DNA from: Bacteroidales bacterium
Lineage (GTDB): Bacteria; Bacteroidota; Bacteroidia; Bacteroidales; P3
Length of the DNA: 36,692 nucleotides
Assembly: GCA_031272705.1 (NCBI GenBank)
Contig: JAISTG010000064.1
Coordinates: 1 to 36,692, forward strand
Reading direction: 5' to 3'
Below the pieces are notes generated by a model, which had not been told where the DNA came from, did no database searches, and saw only the letters and a program-made list of their open reading frames with translations. Below are positions 1,887 to 36,075 of the stretch, one piece after another. Position 1 is the first letter of the stretch, and the number at the start of each line of letters is the position of its first letter. The position numbers and the translations under genes were made by a program.

Positions 1887-1918
1887 TAAATCTTCATAGC
1901 AGGCTTTCAAATTTTTAG

Positions 1919-2002
1919 AATCAAATTCCAGCGTTCCGGAATCAAATTACAGAACGCTGGAATTTGATTCTAGAATTCTATAATCAAGTTTCAGAATTAT
2001 AA
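1919..2002. repeat. AT-rich 21-bp palindromic repeat array A (4 units)
   Basis: Four 21-bp units begin at 1919, 1940, 1961 and 1982. Each has a 9-bp spacer (AATCAAATT, AATCAAATT, AATTTGATT, AATCAAGTT) and a 12-bp near-palindrome such as ACAGAACGCTGG or CTAGAATTCTAT. It lies between the convergent ends of the AraC gene and aroQ. All six frames are soon closed or lack a start, so it is non-coding. It is one of seven related loci in the window. Confidence 0.85.
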
Positions 2003-5948: not shown

Positions 5949-5984
5949 CATTGATTATCAAAAGATTTGCTTTCGCATTCATGA

Positions 5985-6089
5985 AATCAAATTATAAAAT
6001 TCTATAATCAAATTATAGAACGTTAGAATTTGATTTTAGAATTCTATAATTTGATTCTAATAAACTATAATTTGATTTCAGAAAATTCA
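5985..6089. repeat. AT-rich 21-bp palindromic repeat array B (5 units)
   Basis: Units begin at 5985, 6006, 6027, 6048 and 6069, exactly 21 bp apart, with spacers AATCAAATT (twice) then AATTTGATT (three times). The 12-mers include ATAAAATTCTAT, ATAGAACGTTAG and TTAGAATTCTAT. The array sits between ddl and the small ORF at 6212. Frames are closed on both strands, so it is non-coding. Confidence 0.85.
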
Positions 6090-7491: not shown

Positions 7492-8197
7492 TTATCTCCT
7501 TCTTCTTGAAGATTTATGAGTACCGCTACTTCTCAATCTTTTACTTGTCGCAGATGATTTATTTAACCAATCTACTCTCATTTCGTATGACAAGAACAAA
7601 TAATGCCCTTCATTTATTCCCTTCCAACCTATTTTATTTAAGGAATAACCAATTCTGATATAACTCATATAGCCCTCAGGTATATAAGTTGCCGTTCTCA
7701 TAGAACCTGTTCCTGAAATCCACCAGTGACTTAAAAAAACCAAAATCCAACACAATACAGGAAGCATTGAGATTGAGATTACTTCCCCCCACATTTAATT
7801 TATTTGGTATTCCCAATCCAAAATTTTGTTGAAATCCTATACCTATTGCACCCGACCCAACCTTAAATGATGCAAGAACAGGTAATTTTAACATACTGAT
7901 GTAAGAAAATCCGTCTGATAACGTAATATTTGCTCCATACACTATTGGAGTGCTTATTTTGAACCAGTCCGTGAGACTGAAAGAAAAATTTAATCCTAAA
8001 TCTACTCCCATTAAATAAAAATCGGAAAATTCTTTAACTCCTGCCCAACCATTAAGAAACGGATTAAAAGCAAAATCCGTTCCAAAAGTAATTCCTAATT
8101 CACATTTGCCCGCTTCAAAGAATGCAGGACCTCTCCATTGTGCAAAACTTGTTGTCATAATACTTGTAAAGACAAGCGATAGTAATACTTTTTTCAT
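7492..8197 (-). pseudogene. Outer-membrane beta-barrel protein interrupted by a frameshift in a T7 run
   Basis: Two overlapping minus-strand frames together look like one protein of about 234 residues. From 8197 the first frame gives a signal peptide (ending near TTSFAQ) and barrel-like strands (FFEAGKCELGITFGTDFAF, LGLNFSFSLTDWFKIS) and stops at 7676. The other frame carries the barrel on from about 7730 (FLSHWWISGTGSMRTATYIP, YMSYIRIGYSLNKIGWKG) to 7492. The total span is 3n+1, so one extra base explains the break. The suspect is the run of seven T (plus-strand A 7733-7739) after codon GGT: six T would join the frames. It could be a real mutation, phase variation, or a base-calling error. 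A MNRF-type leader ORF lies 55 nt upstream. Confidence 0.75.
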
Positions 8198-8252: not shown

Positions 8253-8453
8253 TCAGACTATATTTCTAAATTTACTAATTTGTATATTTTTATTTAATGT
8301 TAAACGTGTTTTTCTATTATGCGTACATGTACGCACACTCTCCGTACATGTACGCATACCGTCTGTACATGTACGCATACCTTCCGTACATGTACGCATG
8401 CTCTCCGTACATGTACATTTGATTTCTGATATTGTTATTACAAATCTATTCAT
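8253..8453 (-). CDS. Heptad-repeat leader ORF beginning MNRFVITISE (copy 1)
   Basis: 66 codons, ATG at 8453, too close to its promoter for a normal leader (8 nt between the -7 box and ATG). After MNRFVITISE come heptads with Thr at residues 14, 21, 28, 35, 42 and 49, reading TCTE(S/G)(M/V)R, then a basic tail. The repeats are the 21-bp array at 8323-8416 read in frame. A second ORF at 12372-12205 shares the N-terminus and heptad phase and differs within the shared ten codons only at silent third positions, which is evidence for translation. It lies just upstream of the barrel gene at 8197. It resembles no protein I know; it may act as a leader peptide rather than as a stable protein. Confidence 0.55.
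   Translation of the reverse strand: MNRFVITISEIKCTCTESMRTCTEGMRTCTDGMRTCTESVRTCTHNRKTRLTLNKNIQISKFRNIV
8323..8416. repeat. 21-bp tandem array with 12-bp palindrome CGTACATGTACG (5 units)
   Basis: GTACATGTAC starts at 8323, 8344, 8365, 8386 and 8407, exactly 21 bp apart. The 9-bp spacers (CACACTCTC, CATACCGTC, CATACCTTC, CATGCTCTC) vary. On the minus strand they read GAGAGTGTG, GACGGTATG, GAAGGTATG and GAGAGCATG, which resemble the spacers of the array at 31.6 kb. Confidence 0.92.
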
Positions 8454-8461
8454 AGCGGCAG

Positions 8462-8491
8462 CAAAAGTACAACTTTTTTTGAAACTCCCAA
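8462..8491 (-). promoter_or_regulatory. Promoter (-33 TTG / -7 TACTTTTG) for MNRF leader ORF and barrel gene
   Basis: On the minus strand TACTTTTG covers 8469-8462 with TTG at 8491-8489 (19-nt spacer). The ATG of the leader ORF at 8453 is only 8 nt past the box, so the transcript is leaderless or nearly so. Confidence 0.7.
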
Positions 8492-8664
8492 AATCTGTGT
8501 TAAAAGTTTGTTTGCGCCAGCCTTTGGTGTGAGCGCGACACGCACTGCACCAACACGGAAGCACTAAAAATAAAACAATAAAAGCGTGAAATTGCTTGAC
8601 AAATAAAATACCAACATTTTGTACTTTTTATTTTTCCGATTATAGTTAATTCAAAAAGATGTTG

Positions 8665-10028: not shown

Positions 10029-12197
10029 CTACCTGCCTCCCATTAGATTCCTTACTGCATCTCCATATTGTGTTGCCGTTTCCTTATCTCCCTTTTTGAG
10101 AAAATGTTCTTCCATTATGGAATACACTTTTGCGGCTGCGTTACGCTGATCCAAGCCCCACGCCTGATATATTGCCATTAACTGCTGCACGGTGCTATTA
10201 TCAAACCGTTCAATGTCTATTAACCCAAGCAGATATTTCTCCGCATCAACCAAATCCGGCGGTTGCTGACGTAGTTTAGCCTGTGCAGCAAGAGAATATG
10301 CAGCATTATATTTGAAATTGTGCTTTATAATTTTGTCGCAAAGGGTTGCGGCTTCGTTATTTTGTCCTTTCATCAGCAGTGAATAAGCCTTAAAGTAATT
10401 GGCTTGGTCTGATAGCGGATCATATGCAAGTATCCCATTCATCAAAGCAAGTACGGAATCACTTTTGTTTTCCTGCATATAAATTTGAGCAAGAGAAAAG
10501 GCTGCCGATTCGTTTTGGGGGTTGTACGCAAGGGCTTTATGATAAAGTGCAATGGCTGAATCCTTGTTATCTTTTTGCAATGTGGCAAGATAATCGCTTT
10601 TGTCGCCACGCTTAACGACTACGCAGATTGGTACATTATCAACCTCTACCTTATATACTGTGTTCTTTGGTGGATATGAACCGTTACGTAACTGCTCTGG
10701 ATTGATACCTGTGGTAGCGAAAATAGCATAGTCCCAGTCCTTTTCTCCCATTTCGTAATAACGAATGAAGGTTGTAGTGAAATTCGTAGTGTCGTTTCTA
10801 AGAAAATACTTCACAGGTTTTTCATGCCATGCACCTACAATAATTTTACTGTTATCGGGTTTCTTTTCGGCATTCTTCATAACCCATTCGGTCGCTTCAC
10901 GCAGGGAATGGAAGTAATAGTCAATTTCGTAATTTCCGTAAGCCTTTTTTACTCCGCCTTCCAATTCATTAAAATACACTACTTCGTAAGGATGATTGCG
11001 AATGGAAAATGCAAGAGGATGTATGCACAAAAGAGCAAACCCCAACCCCACAGCATATTTGCCATATTTGTTTTTTAGAACTTCTATCAAAGAATTGAAG
11101 CCCAACCCTGCACATGCAACCATAGCAGGATAGGCAAACATAGAGTGCCGCCAACCCCCGTAAACATTGGATTTGTTAATGGCAATCCATAACACGGGAA
11201 AAACAAATGAGAAAAAGACTGCAAAATAATAAAACCATTGTTTTCTGTTGTTTCTTAACAAAGCAATGGACAGCAAAACACCAACAATAACAGCCGTTGG
11301 AATCGTCATAAAGATAAATTTTGGTGTATAATACCATGGCAAAGCATCAGACCATACGGCATTCCCTTCAAATACCTGTCGTAAAGAAGTAGCAAACTTA
11401 CTCATATTATCAAGAGCCTCCTTCACATTGGCAACGGGGGCTTCCATAGCAAAGGGCCATATTATTACCATAATAATATAACCTGCTACAGATATACCCA
11501 ACGCCCACAAAAATGTTTTAAAGAAATATGGTTTAAGAGTTTTGAATTTCCATATATAATAAACGAGTGCAAAGAGTCCAAAGAACGCAATAAACAATAA
11601 TCCTCCCACACGGACGCTTAATCCGAAGGCAAGGGCAAGAGCAAGTTTTATGGCTACACTCCATTTTATTGCAGGTAAATTATCAAGGAAGCATATTATA
11701 TAATACACAATCATTATTGCTGCTGCTGCAAACGGTATATCTTTAAGATTATTGAAACTGTGTCCAATAAATCTTGGCGAAACTAACATTAGAACCAAAG
11801 TCAATACAGCCGCTCTGTCTCCGCCTATTTTTCGTGCAAGGAGGGCTGTAAATAAAATTGCCACCCACCCTAAAAAAGTATTTACCAAATGCCTTACAGC
11901 CATTATGTCATCTATTCCAAACAAATGATACACCATTGCGGAGAAAGTATCAGGAAATTGCCCATAATACGGAAGATTATAACTTGGTGTAACTGTTACG
12001 GCAGTTTTATCTCCTTCGGCATAATACTTCAAAACATTTTCCGAATGTTCCGTATGAAAAAATTCATCCCCCGAAATACCTGCATCCCTGCTTAAAACCA
12101 ACAATACAACCAGCGACAACGCCGCAAGTAAATAAAACGCATTTTTCCAACCGAATAACGTCTTCATATTTTTCATTTGATTTAATTTATTAAACAT
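10029..12197 (-). CDS. Multi-pass membrane glycosyltransferase (GT39/PMT-like) with C-terminal TPRs
   Basis: 722 residues. About 11-12 membrane helices span residues 20-420. An extracytoplasmic loop after the first helix carries an Asp/Glu pair (AGISGDEFFHTEHSENVLKYY), as in the catalytic loop of polyprenyl-phosphate-dependent GT-C enzymes. Residues about 560-720 are TPR repeats (DSAIALYHKALAYNPQNESAAFSLAQ and following). It likely transfers a lipid-linked sugar outside the inner membrane; acceptor and sugar are unknown. The ATG at 12197 lies 7 nt after the MNRF leader ORF; in-frame ATGs a few codons in (MKN, MKT) are alternatives. The stop abuts the ZIP gene. Confidence 0.85.
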   Translation of the reverse strand: MFNKLNQMKNMKTLFGWKNAFYLLAALSLVVLLVLSRDAGISGDEFFHTEHSENVLKYYAEGDKTAVTVTPSYNLPYYGQFPDTFSAMVYHLFGIDDIMAVRHLVNTFLGWVAILFTALLARKIGGDRAAVLTLVLMLVSPRFIGHSFNNLKDIPFAAAAIMIVYYIICFLDNLPAIKWSVAIKLALALAFGLSVRVGGLLFIAFFGLFALVYYIWKFKTLKPYFFKTFLWALGISVAGYIIMVIIWPFAMEAPVANVKEALDNMSKFATSLRQVFEGNAVWSDALPWYYTPKFIFMTIPTAVIVGVLLSIALLRNNRKQWFYYFAVFFSFVFPVLWIAINKSNVYGGWRHSMFAYPAMVACAGLGFNSLIEVLKNKYGKYAVGLGFALLCIHPLAFSIRNHPYEVVYFNELEGGVKKAYGNYEIDYYFHSLREATEWVMKNAEKKPDNSKIIVGAWHEKPVKYFLRNDTTNFTTTFIRYYEMGEKDWDYAIFATTGINPEQLRNGSYPPKNTVYKVEVDNVPICVVVKRGDKSDYLATLQKDNKDSAIALYHKALAYNPQNESAAFSLAQIYMQENKSDSVLALMNGILAYDPLSDQANYFKAYSLLMKGQNNEAATLCDKIIKHNFKYNAAYSLAAQAKLRQQPPDLVDAEKYLLGLIDIERFDNSTVQQLMAIYQAWGLDQRNAAAKVYSIMEEHFLKKGDKETATQYGDAVRNLMGGR

Positions 12198-12204
12198 TAG
12201 TTAT

Positions 12205-12372
12205 TTATTTTATTTTTAGATTACCTGTTTCTAAACACTCTGCACCGGTTGCTAAATCACGGACACCGGTTGCCAAGTTACGGACACCGGTGCTTTTGAT
12301 TGCTGTACTTGTGCAACAGGTTTCTGCACCTGTATTTTGAGTTTCTGATATTGTGATTACAAATCTGTTCAT
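12205..12372 (-). CDS. Heptad-repeat leader ORF beginning MNRFVITISE (copy 2)
   Basis: 55 codons from the ATG at 12372, ending 7 nt before the glycosyltransferase start. MNRFVITISE is followed by heptads with Thr at residues 14, 21, 28, 35, 42 and 49 (TGVRNLA, TGVRDLA, TGAECLE), the same phase as the copy at 8453-8253 but with different heptad sequence. The -7 box is again 8 nt before the ATG. The close spacing to the downstream gene suggests an upstream ORF that couples or attenuates its translation. It is too short and too repetitive to recognise; a non-coding leader remains the alternative. Confidence 0.55.
   Translation of the reverse strand: MNRFVITISETQNTGAETCCTSTAIKSTGVRNLATGVRDLATGAECLETGNLKIK
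12223..12333. repeat. 21-bp array with ACCGGT core (6 phased sites)
   Basis: ACCTGT, ACCGGT, ACCGGT, ACCGGT, ACTTGT and ACCTGT start at 12223, 12244, 12265, 12286, 12307 and 12328, exactly 21 bp apart. The middle three carry the intact palindrome (CACCGGTG at 12285-12292) and the outer ones are decayed. It is wholly inside the leader ORF, with the palindrome centre on a codon boundary. Confidence 0.85.
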
Positions 12373-12380
12373 AGCGGCGG

Positions 12381-12388
12381 CAAAGGTA
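12381..12388 (-). promoter_or_regulatory. -7 box TACCTTTG for MNRF leader ORF, glycosyltransferase and ZIP operon
   Basis: It reads from 12388 to 12381 on the minus strand, 8 nt before the leader-ORF ATG, as in copy 1. No good -33 TTG at the usual distance is seen. Confidence 0.65.
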
Positions 12389-12446
12389 CAAAAAGTTTTT
12401 TAATTCCTAAATAAAGTTTTTTTTATTTGAATCCGGGTTAATATGA

Positions 12447-18750: not shown

Positions 18751-18896
18751 AATTTGATTCCGGATTACTGTAATTTGATTATAGAAAATTAGAATCAAAT
18801 TACAGCGTTCCGGAATCAAATTATAGAATTCTATAATCAAGTTCTAGCGTTCTGTAATTTGATTCTAATTTTCTATAATCAAATTACAGAAGTTAC
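18751..18896. repeat. AT-rich 21-bp palindromic repeat array C (7 units)
   Basis: Units begin at 18751, 18772, 18793, 18814, 18835, 18856 and 18877. Spacers are AATTTGATT or AATCAAATT (one AATCAAGTT); 12-mers include the perfect palindrome ATAGAATTCTAT and ACAGCGTTCCGG. Five consecutive units match array D almost base for base. It fills part of the 390-nt gap between WbqC and hepT. Confidence 0.9.
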
Positions 18897-19096: not shown

Positions 19097-19468
19097 TTAC
19101 AGAATATCGTCCAACATCTTTTGTATTATTCTTTCAAGAAGCGGTATATCTTCTTTTACTATTCTAATGATTTCCTCTGCATCAACATCAAAATAATGAT
19201 GAACTATTATATCTCTTAATCCCATTACTCCCTTCCATTCTATTGTTGGATATTGTTGCAAAAACTGTTTATTTGTGTGTTTATCCAAATTTTTAATACT
19301 TTCGCCTACTGCAATCAATTTCATACAGATGCTGTCAAGAACAGTCATTCCATAAGGCGAAGAATAGAAATCATCGGCATTGTTTATTGCTTTTGTGCGT
19401 TCGGTTATTGTCTGTAACGACTCATAAATTTGCTTCAATACATCAGCAATCAATTCTTTATTAAACAT
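19097..19468 (-). CDS. hepT: HepT-like ribonuclease toxin (DUF86)
   Basis: 123 residues from the ATG at 19468, all-helical. The HEPN RNase motif R-x4-H is present at Arg85 and His90, with Tyr92 close behind (LRDIIVHHYFDVD), the Tyr being in the position AMPylated by the antitoxin in characterised pairs. The upstream ATG at 19486 lies inside mntA and is less likely. The gene overlaps the end of mntA by 8 nt, the usual arrangement of MntA-HepT toxin-antitoxin operons. HepT cleaves RNA when unmodified; MntA blocks it by AMPylation (known for the family). All key residues look intact, so the pair is probably active. Confidence 0.9.
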   Translation of the reverse strand: MFNKELIADVLKQIYESLQTITERTKAINNADDFYSSPYGMTVLDSICMKLIAVGESIKNLDKHTNKQFLQQYPTIEWKGVMGLRDIIVHHYFDVDAEEIIRIVKEDIPLLERIIQKMLDDIL

Positions 19469-19754
19469 AAATACCTTCCTTTTCAATTATCTTTTTCAAT
19501 ACAGGGTTCATTCTTTCTCTTAACCTCACAACATCAACCCTATTTTGCAACAATTCTTCGAGTTCTGTTTTTATCATAGCCAAAGCACAAAAACCATTTA
19601 AAGAACCAACTATATAAATATCTATATCACTTTCTTCTGTTTGAGTTTCCCGTGCAAGAGAGCCAAATAAGCCAATTTTTTCAATGCCATATTTAGATGC
19701 TCTGGTTGCTTTATAATCTCTTAACAGATTTAATGCTTGTTGTTGTGTTATCAT
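19461..19754 (-). CDS. mntA: MntA-like minimal nucleotidyltransferase antitoxin
   Basis: 97 residues, the usual size of a minimal nucleotidyltransferase. The signature GSx10DxD is complete: Gly31-Ser32, then Asp43 and Asp45 (GSLARETQTEESDIDI), with the third acidic residue probably in NRVDVV. In characterised pairs it transfers AMP onto the HepT tyrosine and neutralises it. It precedes hepT with an overlap of 8 nt. Only 20 nt separate it from the retropepsin-YD gene upstream on the same strand, so all three may share a transcript; no separate promoter is evident in that gap. Confidence 0.92.
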   Translation of the reverse strand: MITQQQALNLLRDYKATRASKYGIEKIGLFGSLARETQTEESDIDIYIVGSLNGFCALAMIKTELEELLQNRVDVVRLRERMNPVLKKIIEKEGIYV

Positions 19755-21452: not shown

Positions 21453-21572
21453 CAATCAAGTACTTAAAAATAGAGATTTGTTCTATATTTCTTTGTAAGG
21501 AGATGCTAATAGGCTAATTTCTTTCATTATTCTTTCAGTTACGAAAAATACTTGTCGTTCTTAAAAAAATAG

Positions 21573-21690
21573 AATTTGATTATAGAAAATTAGAATCAAA
21601 TTACAGCGTTCCGGAATCAAATTATAAAATTCTATAATCAAGTTCTAGCGTTCTGTAATTTGATTCTAATTTTACGGAAGCAAGTTTTAG
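21573..21690. repeat. AT-rich 21-bp palindromic repeat array D (5 units plus decayed sixth)
   Basis: Units begin at 21573, 21594, 21615, 21636 and 21657, with a diverged AAGCAAGTT unit at 21678. Order and sequence of the 12-mers (ATAGAAAATTAG, ACAGCGTTCCGG, ATAAAATTCTAT, CTAGCGTTCTGT) repeat those of array C with very few changes, which indicates a recent copy. It lies upstream of the subtilisin promoter. Confidence 0.9.
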
Positions 21691-21707
21691 AAAAATAAAA
21701 TGCAAAT

Positions 21708-24836: not shown

Positions 24837-24983
24837 AATCAAATTACAGAACGCTATAACTTGATTATAGATTTTTGAAACTTGATTATAATTTACTGGA
24901 ATTTGATTATAGAATTCTATAATTTGATTTCAGAACGCTGTAATTTGATTCTAATTTTCTATAATCAAATTCTAATAAAACAA
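24837..24983. repeat. AT-rich 21-bp palindromic repeat array E (7 units)
   Basis: Units begin at 24837, 24858, 24879, 24900, 24921, 24942 and 24963 with no slippage. Spacers include AACTTGATT variants; 12-mers include ATAGAATTCTAT (perfect palindrome), TCAGAACGCTGT and CTAATTTTCTAT. It lies between the VanZ gene and the ketosynthase-like gene, ending about 70 nt before the latter's promoter box. Confidence 0.9.
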
Positions 24984-31486: not shown

Positions 31487-31879
31487 ATGATTATCAAACC
31501 ATTAAAGAGTGTTCCGAAAGGATTTTGGGTCGTACGGAAAACCGTAAAAAACGTTACAACGACTTTCTGTAACGTTACGGAAAGTTATTGTAATGTTACA
31601 GAGAGTTATTGTAACGTTACAGAGAGTTGTTGTAATGTTACAGAGAGTTATTGTAACGTTACAGAAGGTTGTTGTAACGTTACAGAAGGTTATTGTAACG
31701 TTACAGAGAGTTGTTGTAACGTTACAGAAAGTTATTGTAACGTTACAGAAAGTTATTGTAACGTTACAGAGAGTTATTGTAACGTTACAGAAAGTTGTTG
31801 TAACGTTACAGAAACGATAAAAACCGGAATTTTTAGATTTTATAATATAATATATACTAATAATTATTATTCCTCATAG
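31487..31879 (+). CDS. Heptad-repeat ORF, (C)NVTE(S/G)(Y/C) repeats
   Basis: 130 codons from ATG 31487. About 20 basic/hydrophobic residues (MIIKPLKSVPKGFWVVRK) precede some 13 heptads, mostly CNVTESY or CNVTESC, then a tail TIKTGIFRFYNIIYTNNYYSS. The repeats are the 21-bp array at 31568-31819 read in one frame; a second forward frame is also open across the array, as is common in such DNA. The heptad TE(S/G) echoes TCTE(S/G) in the leader ORF at 8253-8453. There is no signal peptide, no clear promoter and no Shine-Dalgarno. Either a small repeat protein or a non-coding array with an open frame by virtue of its period. Confidence 0.35.
   Translation: MIIKPLKSVPKGFWVVRKTVKNVTTTFCNVTESYCNVTESYCNVTESCCNVTESYCNVTEGCCNVTEGYCNVTESCCNVTESYCNVTESYCNVTESYCNVTESCCNVTETIKTGIFRFYNIIYTNNYYSS
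31568..31819. repeat. 21-bp tandem array with perfect palindrome TGTAACGTTACA (12 units)
   Basis: Twelve units start every 21 bp from 31568 to 31799, with a degenerate unit before (AACGTTACA near 31552). Palindromes are almost invariant (TGTAACGTTACA; TGTAATGTTACA twice), while 9-bp spacers vary between GAGAGTTAT, GAAAGTTAT, GAGAGTTGT and GAAGGTTGT. It lies downstream of btuG between convergent transcription units. Confidence 0.95.
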
Positions 31880-35048: not shown

Positions 35049-35091
35049 AAAACAACTTTATCCTCGAAAGTTTTTAAACTTTATAATTTTT

Positions 35092-35250
35092 GGCAGGTTT
35101 TCTGACTTGTTCCCAATCAAGTTGCCTTCCCATTTTTCACAGTGGCAAAAGATTTACCCGATTGTTTTTTTGGAACTTACAGCAGCGGGACTGTACAGGA
35201 TTCTCACCTGATTCCCTTTTGCATCTTCGCCCGTAGGACTACAGGAAAAG
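35092..35250 (-). promoter_or_regulatory. Cobalamin riboswitch controlling btuB-btuG
   Basis: Read on the minus strand, the leader contains the conserved GGGAATCAGGTGAGAATCC and TACAGTCCCGCTGCTGTAAG cores, the B12-box GCCACTG, and a closing AGTCAGAAAACCTGCC, in the order expected for AdoCbl riboswitches. It begins close to the transcription start and ends about 44 nt before the btuB ATG, which fits control of expression by cobalamin. No intrinsic terminator follows, so translational control is likelier. Confidence 0.95.
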
Positions 35251-35265
35251 AACCAAAAACGGCGG

Positions 35266-35295
35266 CAAAAGTACAAAAAAAATCAATACGTGCAA
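35266..35295 (-). promoter_or_regulatory. Promoter (-33 TTG / -7 TACTTTTG) of B12 uptake operon
   Basis: TACTTTTG from 35273 to 35266 and TTG 35295-35293, spacer 19 nt; transcription should start near 35261, just before the riboswitch. Confidence 0.75.
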
Positions 35296-35944: not shown

Positions 35945-36040
35945 AATTAGATTACATTCAATTAAAATCAAAGAATATTCATTCAAAATCAAGTTTTAGA
36001 CAATTATAATTTGATTTTGAACATTTGTAATCAAGTTTCA
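35945..36040. repeat. AT-rich 21-bp palindromic repeat array F (5 units, diverged)
   Basis: Units begin at 35945, 35966, 35987, 36008 and 36029 with spacers AATTAGATT, AATCAAAGA, AATCAAGTT, AATTTGATT and AATCAAGTT. The 12-mers have lost most dyad symmetry (ACATTCAATTAA, ATATTCATTCAA), but the 21-bp phase is kept. It lies between the divergent acetyltransferase and carbamoyltransferase genes. Confidence 0.75.
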
Positions 36041-36075
36041 GGGTCTTTTTTTGCAGCCATTGACAGGGATAAATG

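Follow-up and report, generated by a model that had tools for sequence, protein, structure and literature searches.

Leader open reading frames with 21-bp repeat arrays in a Bacteroidales genome: possible copies of a mosaic repeat cassette

Two leader open reading frames (ORFs) in a 36,692-nucleotide contig of a Bacteroidales bacterium (JAISTG010000064.1, hereafter the window) share a promoter, a start and a heptad repeat, and the heptad is best read as the result of a 21-bp period of the DNA rather than as a feature of the peptide. We rate the chances as about even that both ORFs are copies of mosaic repeat cassettes, placed between a promoter and a gene and acting, if they act at all, via helically phased units. 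The features of the window are collected in Table 1.

Table 1. Leader ORFs, promoter modules, downstream genes and 21-bp arrays of the window
Feature	Position	Strand	Description
Gene downstream of leader 1	7676..8197	(-)	Predicted secreted/outer-membrane (signal-peptide-like start); no Pfam hit
Leader ORF 1	8253..8453	(-)	66 aa; head MNRFVITISE, array TCTE(S/G)MR
21-bp tandem array in leader 1	8322..8416		TRF; 4.5 units, palindrome GTACATGTAC + 11-bp spacer
Promoter module of leader 1 (TACTTTTG)	8454..8492	(-)	Common to leader 2; repeat search, block identity
PMT-like membrane glycosyltransferase with TPRs	10029..12197	(-)	Downstream of leader 2
Leader ORF 2	12205..12372	(-)	55 aa; head MNRFVITISE, array TGVR(N/D)LA
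21-bp tandem array in leader 2	12243..12291		TRF; 2.3 units, palindrome ACCGGT
Promoter module of leader 2 (TACCTTTG)	12373..12405	(-)	33 nt, 91% identical to promoters of KQKFF leaders (DYIP cassettes)
Third leader-type ORF	31487..31879	(+)	Head MIIKPLKSVPKGFWVVRKTV, ~12 units of TGTAACGTTACAGAAAGTTAT; downstream gene convergent
Non-coding intergenic 21-bp array	1915..2000		Box AATCAARTT/AAYTTGATT
Non-coding intergenic 21-bp array	5982..6085		AATCAARTT box type
Non-coding intergenic 21-bp array	18751..18891		AATCAARTT box type
Non-coding intergenic 21-bp array	21552..21692		AATCAARTT box type
Non-coding intergenic 21-bp array	24837..24977		AATCAARTT box type
Short 21-bp array	35987..36041		AATCAARTT box type

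Translation confirms that both ORFs begin with MNRFVITISE, as an earlier note on this DNA had described, and the TAnnTTTG box that it placed 8 nt before the ATG is present in both (TACTTTTG in leader 1, TACCTTTG in leader 2). The threonine heptad is likewise there: threonines occupy positions 7, 14, 21, 28, 35, 42 and 49 of both peptides, the same positions because the head meets both arrays in the same register. Among the ten common codons only AAT/AAC and ATA/ATC differ, both silently. The common block, which spans the promoter and these ten codons (91% identity over 55 nt), was retrieved from the window's own genome with E=1.7e-15, so the resemblance is no matter of chance. The next start on the same strand lies 55 nt beyond the end of leader 1 and 7 nt beyond that of leader 2. 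What had been observed on the two ORFs is real; the interpretation given to it is partly supported.

Tandem repeat periods normally vary between arrays. The genome comprises 2.15 Mb in 125 contigs and belongs to the Bacteroidota, judging by its promoters and by the relatives of its proteins. A sample of 742 kb (34%), taken as stretches, was screened for tandem arrays with 70% identity over 42-nt windows. This gave 103 runs with a period of 21 bp and 20 runs with a period of 22 bp, plus multiples, and almost no other period below twice 21-22 bp, in coding and non-coding DNA alike. The six periodic runs of the window all have period 21, and 20 Markov simulations (periods 9-39) yielded none. Such a period equals two turns of B-DNA. 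The array units have many unrelated sequences, and many combine a single palindrome of 10-12 bp with a spacer of 11 bp; outside the AATCAARTT type, the consensus unit contains a significant palindrome in 31 of the 64 arrays (p<=0.05, shuffling). The AATCAARTT type itself is non-coding and makes up nearly half of the arrays (52/116), and the window holds about six non-coding intergenic 21-bp arrays. The AATCAARTT box recurs at intervals of 21 bp in several genera of the family, and the control gave no matches. The 22-bp arrays, in which a frame is not maintainable, are spanned by no ORF. Since both these and the non-coding AATCAARTT arrays exist, it is not a reading frame that imposes the period, and the heptad is not supported as a peptide feature because arrays that are non-coding, or that have stops in every frame, show the same 21-bp period. 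Matches of the box pattern in viral contigs were almost all single, 21-bp arrays were not in excess in the Rho neighbourhoods of 80 named genomes, and no description of such arrays in Bacteroidota was found in the literature. Within the window, the AATCAARTT arrays at 18772-18891 and 21573-21692 are 93% identical over 120 bp with 2.7 kb between them, and a copy in inverted orientation (81%) occupies 24854-24978, which points to exchange between arrays.

The leaders are assembled from modules. Variant heads elsewhere in the genome (MNRLKRTISE, MKRFKRTISE and MNRFFTYYY(TS)) recur with the same or other arrays, by which heads, promoters and arrays can be recognized as mosaic modules; the VIT and KRT heads were each found with both the GTACATGTAC and the ACCGGT array, and these four pairings imply module exchange. 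A second head family (MIIK...SVPKGFWVVRKTV) has about nine mostly near-identical copies, the divergent ones carrying two other array sequences, and a third (KQKFFAKYRVLGY), whose promoter is also that of the MNRL leader, is present in seven or more copies and with at least two array types. The C38 MNRL leader in turn has the promoter of a KQKFF leader, identical over 47 nt, or over 71 nt by local BLAST. MIIK and KQKFF copies have both leader and tail DNA in common; window leaders 1 and 2 have the leader side alone. The array of leader 2 is short at the DNA level (2-3 units), and the head of the third leader-type ORF is unrelated to those of leaders 1 and 2. The proposal of a leader family with common starts and swapped repeat modules holds, with at least four head families in the genome, while its other half, a regulated family of peptides, is not supported. 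Among 60 genomes of relatives no match to the MNRF promoter-head DNA was found. No transposase was identified with the cassettes, which counts against the explanation that we prefer. A further promoter-leader ORF, with 42-bp double units (ITGCKSSPEVCGKG), is located at L164:5500-6050 (-) and precedes a gene with a signal peptide.

Many leaders with 21-bp arrays directly precede genes from a multi-copy family with products of about 225 aa (M..xDYIP..FKAW..NF...GPWS, hereafter DYIP), of which the genome holds about 25 full or partial copies. The family has no significant match in Pfam, NCBIfam, PHROGs or PDB and was not found in phages, plasmids or viral contigs; its matches to ArfB (E ~0.05) are not significant. 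A 21-bp array ends within 120 nt upstream of 17 of the 20 DYIP starts with upstream sequence, versus 3-14% of ORFs, and periods of 19, 20, 23 and 24 are absent there. As DYIP was noticed via the leaders of this genome, other genomes form the less biased part of the count: in two congeners (G001, G003) and a genome from a distant Bacteroidota family (G279), a 21-bp array ends no more than 120 nt upstream of five of the seven DYIP starts. The arrays at L077 (G001) and L408 (G279) have stops in every frame, hence it is the period and not the peptide that is conserved at DYIP, and an open frame is ruled out as a requirement. The distance from array end to DYIP start is mostly 38-109 nt, or else the array lies inside a leader ORF that overlaps the start by 11 nt, as in C27 and C89. 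Over the phylum, DYIP was found in 2 of 247 sampled genomes, both rich in 21-bp arrays, so that the co-occurrence is based on two genomes plus congeners. Window leaders 1 and 2 are tied to the DYIP cassettes by short common promoter and border segments alone.

According to the preferred reading, a cassette would consist of a Bacteroidetes promoter followed by a short start module and by 21-bp units in tandem, many bearing one short palindrome each, ahead of a gene. Unit length would be set at the DNA level, and a heptad peptide would arise when a start codon enters a 21-bp array. The usual setting of many such leaders would be before multi-copy DYIP genes, and at 8453 and 12372 promoter, head and array would have been placed before unrelated genes. 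We infer that the array may alter expression of the downstream gene via unit number and helical phasing, whereas translation of the leader would be permissive, avoiding polarity, and not the signal. The best reading is that any action of the cassette takes place at the DNA or RNA level. A wider proposal, which we hold tentatively, is a Bacteroidota system in which 21-bp arrays of free sequence, located 5' of DYIP genes and elsewhere in their genomes, are copied and exchanged with promoters and tune expression via phased DNA (through a bound protein or geometry), with the period alone conserved.

The genes behind the window leaders give no indication of a conserved regulatory partner. Orthologs of the glycosyltransferase occur in three congeners (G001, G002 and G003; 70-76% identity) and the leader is absent before all of them; a search of the named genomes gave no match. 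The gene downstream of leader 1 has weak homologs in G001 and G003 only. Because of the leaderless congeners, and because the leader at 31487 has a convergent gene downstream, position before envelope genes is not a rule and the suggested conserved regulation of an envelope gene is not sustained. The barrel-like gene at 7492-8197 (-) seems to be broken up into two frames that overlap, 8197-7676 and 7794-7492, probably by a frameshift, real or due to assembly error. Rfam has no match at the leaders; its matches in the window are one tRNA and one cobalamin riboswitch (35075-35272 (-)), the latter upstream of a TonB-dependent-receptor-like gene (35048-33057 (-)). At 19097-19754 (-) adjoining nucleotidyltransferase-like and HEPN-like ORFs possibly constitute an MNT/HEPN toxin-antitoxin pair. 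A hairpin-like UTR element (CGGACTTAC...GTAAGTCCGC) was seen at L165:3100-3440 (-) and L169:7765-8070 (+), in both cases before genes with the signal peptide ATAVFVFGMGFSN.

Cassettes could also be repeat debris that spreads and decays neutrally, with arrays expanding through slippage and unequal exchange and the window copies merely supplying a promoter. Decayed copies do occur, C13 lacking the ATG and having an early stop and C38 having lost 2 nt within its array; truncation is frequent among DYIP genes, and the orthologous locus of the congeners has no leader. Neutral slippage, however, does not explain one period over unrelated sequences, also at DYIP in a distant family, nor that in L077 the period persists through degenerate sequence for more than 400 bp, and we regard this account as rather unlikely.

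Less probable still is an RNA element, in which palindromic units would pair into a long 5' transcript hairpin and thereby control transcription or decay. Several of the palindromic leader arrays do fold much better than controls with permuted columns (sense z ~-2 to -6), but neither strand consistently folds better, and the arrays of C27, C89 and C15, which also precede DYIP, are not clearly better folders than their controls. The same comparison rules out an RNA hairpin as a universal cause.

In the earlier note the silent differences were taken as the mark of selection on protein; on such a reading the conserved start and heptads would control the downstream envelope gene. Apart from the silent changes between leaders 1 and 2, this agrees with the absence of stops from the first ten codons of MNRF-type copies, where their presence had been named as refuting, and with the 11-nt overlap of C27 and C89, which resembles translational coupling. 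MNRF heads lean synonymous (6 synonymous, 7 non-synonymous changes; nominal p=0.046). Within the common block 3 of 20 non-coding and 2 of 30 coding bases differ, so the coding part is not clearly better conserved than the promoter. Against protein-level selection, within-array variants are ~30% synonymous in the leader frame versus ~28% expected (five arrays summed), KQKFF heads show 2 synonymous and 10 non-synonymous changes, and the DNA of the KQKFF tail is kept across a frameshift (alignment by eye). Several leader arrays do stay open for 55-130 codons, and outside the AATCAARTT type 3.2 of 6 frames are open versus 2.1 after column permutation, in a set partly chosen for openness. This excess of open frames suggests some importance of translation, in this genome at least, so leaders may be translated, but what is conserved is not the peptide sequence. 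With untranslatable arrays at DYIP genes in other genomes and no conserved gene downstream of the window leaders, regulated leader peptides are the least probable of these explanations.

The leader peptide of an amino-acid biosynthesis attenuator is likewise encoded by a short ORF that has a promoter of its own and immediately precedes a gene. Unlike attenuators, the window leaders have no single-amino-acid run and no conserved downstream gene, and their array sequences are interchangeable; the glycosyltransferase orthologs of G001, G002 and G003 do not share the arrangement, and the heptads carry mixed residues, showing neither purifying selection nor a regulatory codon run. The BrickBuilt minisatellite/MITE of Porphyromonas gingivalis, present in about 19 copies, has a single 23-nt unit sequence, a target-site duplication and terminal inverted repeats (GAGACCTTTGCA kind), as well as promoter activity, predicted stem-loops and a variable unit number (PMC4596501). 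Both it and the cassettes are dispersed intergenic Bacteroidales elements built of short units placed head to tail, and the leader and tail DNA of the MIIK and KQKFF copies may correspond to the leader and tail of BrickBuilt, but the units here measure 21 (rarely 22) bp and not 23 nt, have dozens of sequences, and form arrays within leader ORFs and associated with a gene family. RepMP1/DUF16 of Mycoplasma pneumoniae, a multi-copy mosaic gene family too, has 21-nt tandem repeats that amount to heptads of varying number within a coiled-coil domain (PMC3472980); here the repeats are in a leader upstream of the DYIP start, sometimes without an open frame. TAACTGA heptamers, 7-nt direct repeats of fixed sequence in Beggiatoaceae, Cyanobacteria and some Bacteroidetes, are also found close upstream of start codons, and a post-transcriptional role was proposed for them (PMC4679880); unlike the 21-bp arrays they are not tied to one gene family. 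The closest systems are each partly alike, and differ in unit length, position or sequence freedom.

For genomes of this kind, a near-uniform period of two helical turns over unrelated sequences, together with the DYIP link in another family, points to some process by which helical turns are counted and sequence is not read. It also calls for caution, since a heptad that runs in frame through a short ORF of such a genome is not necessarily a protein feature.
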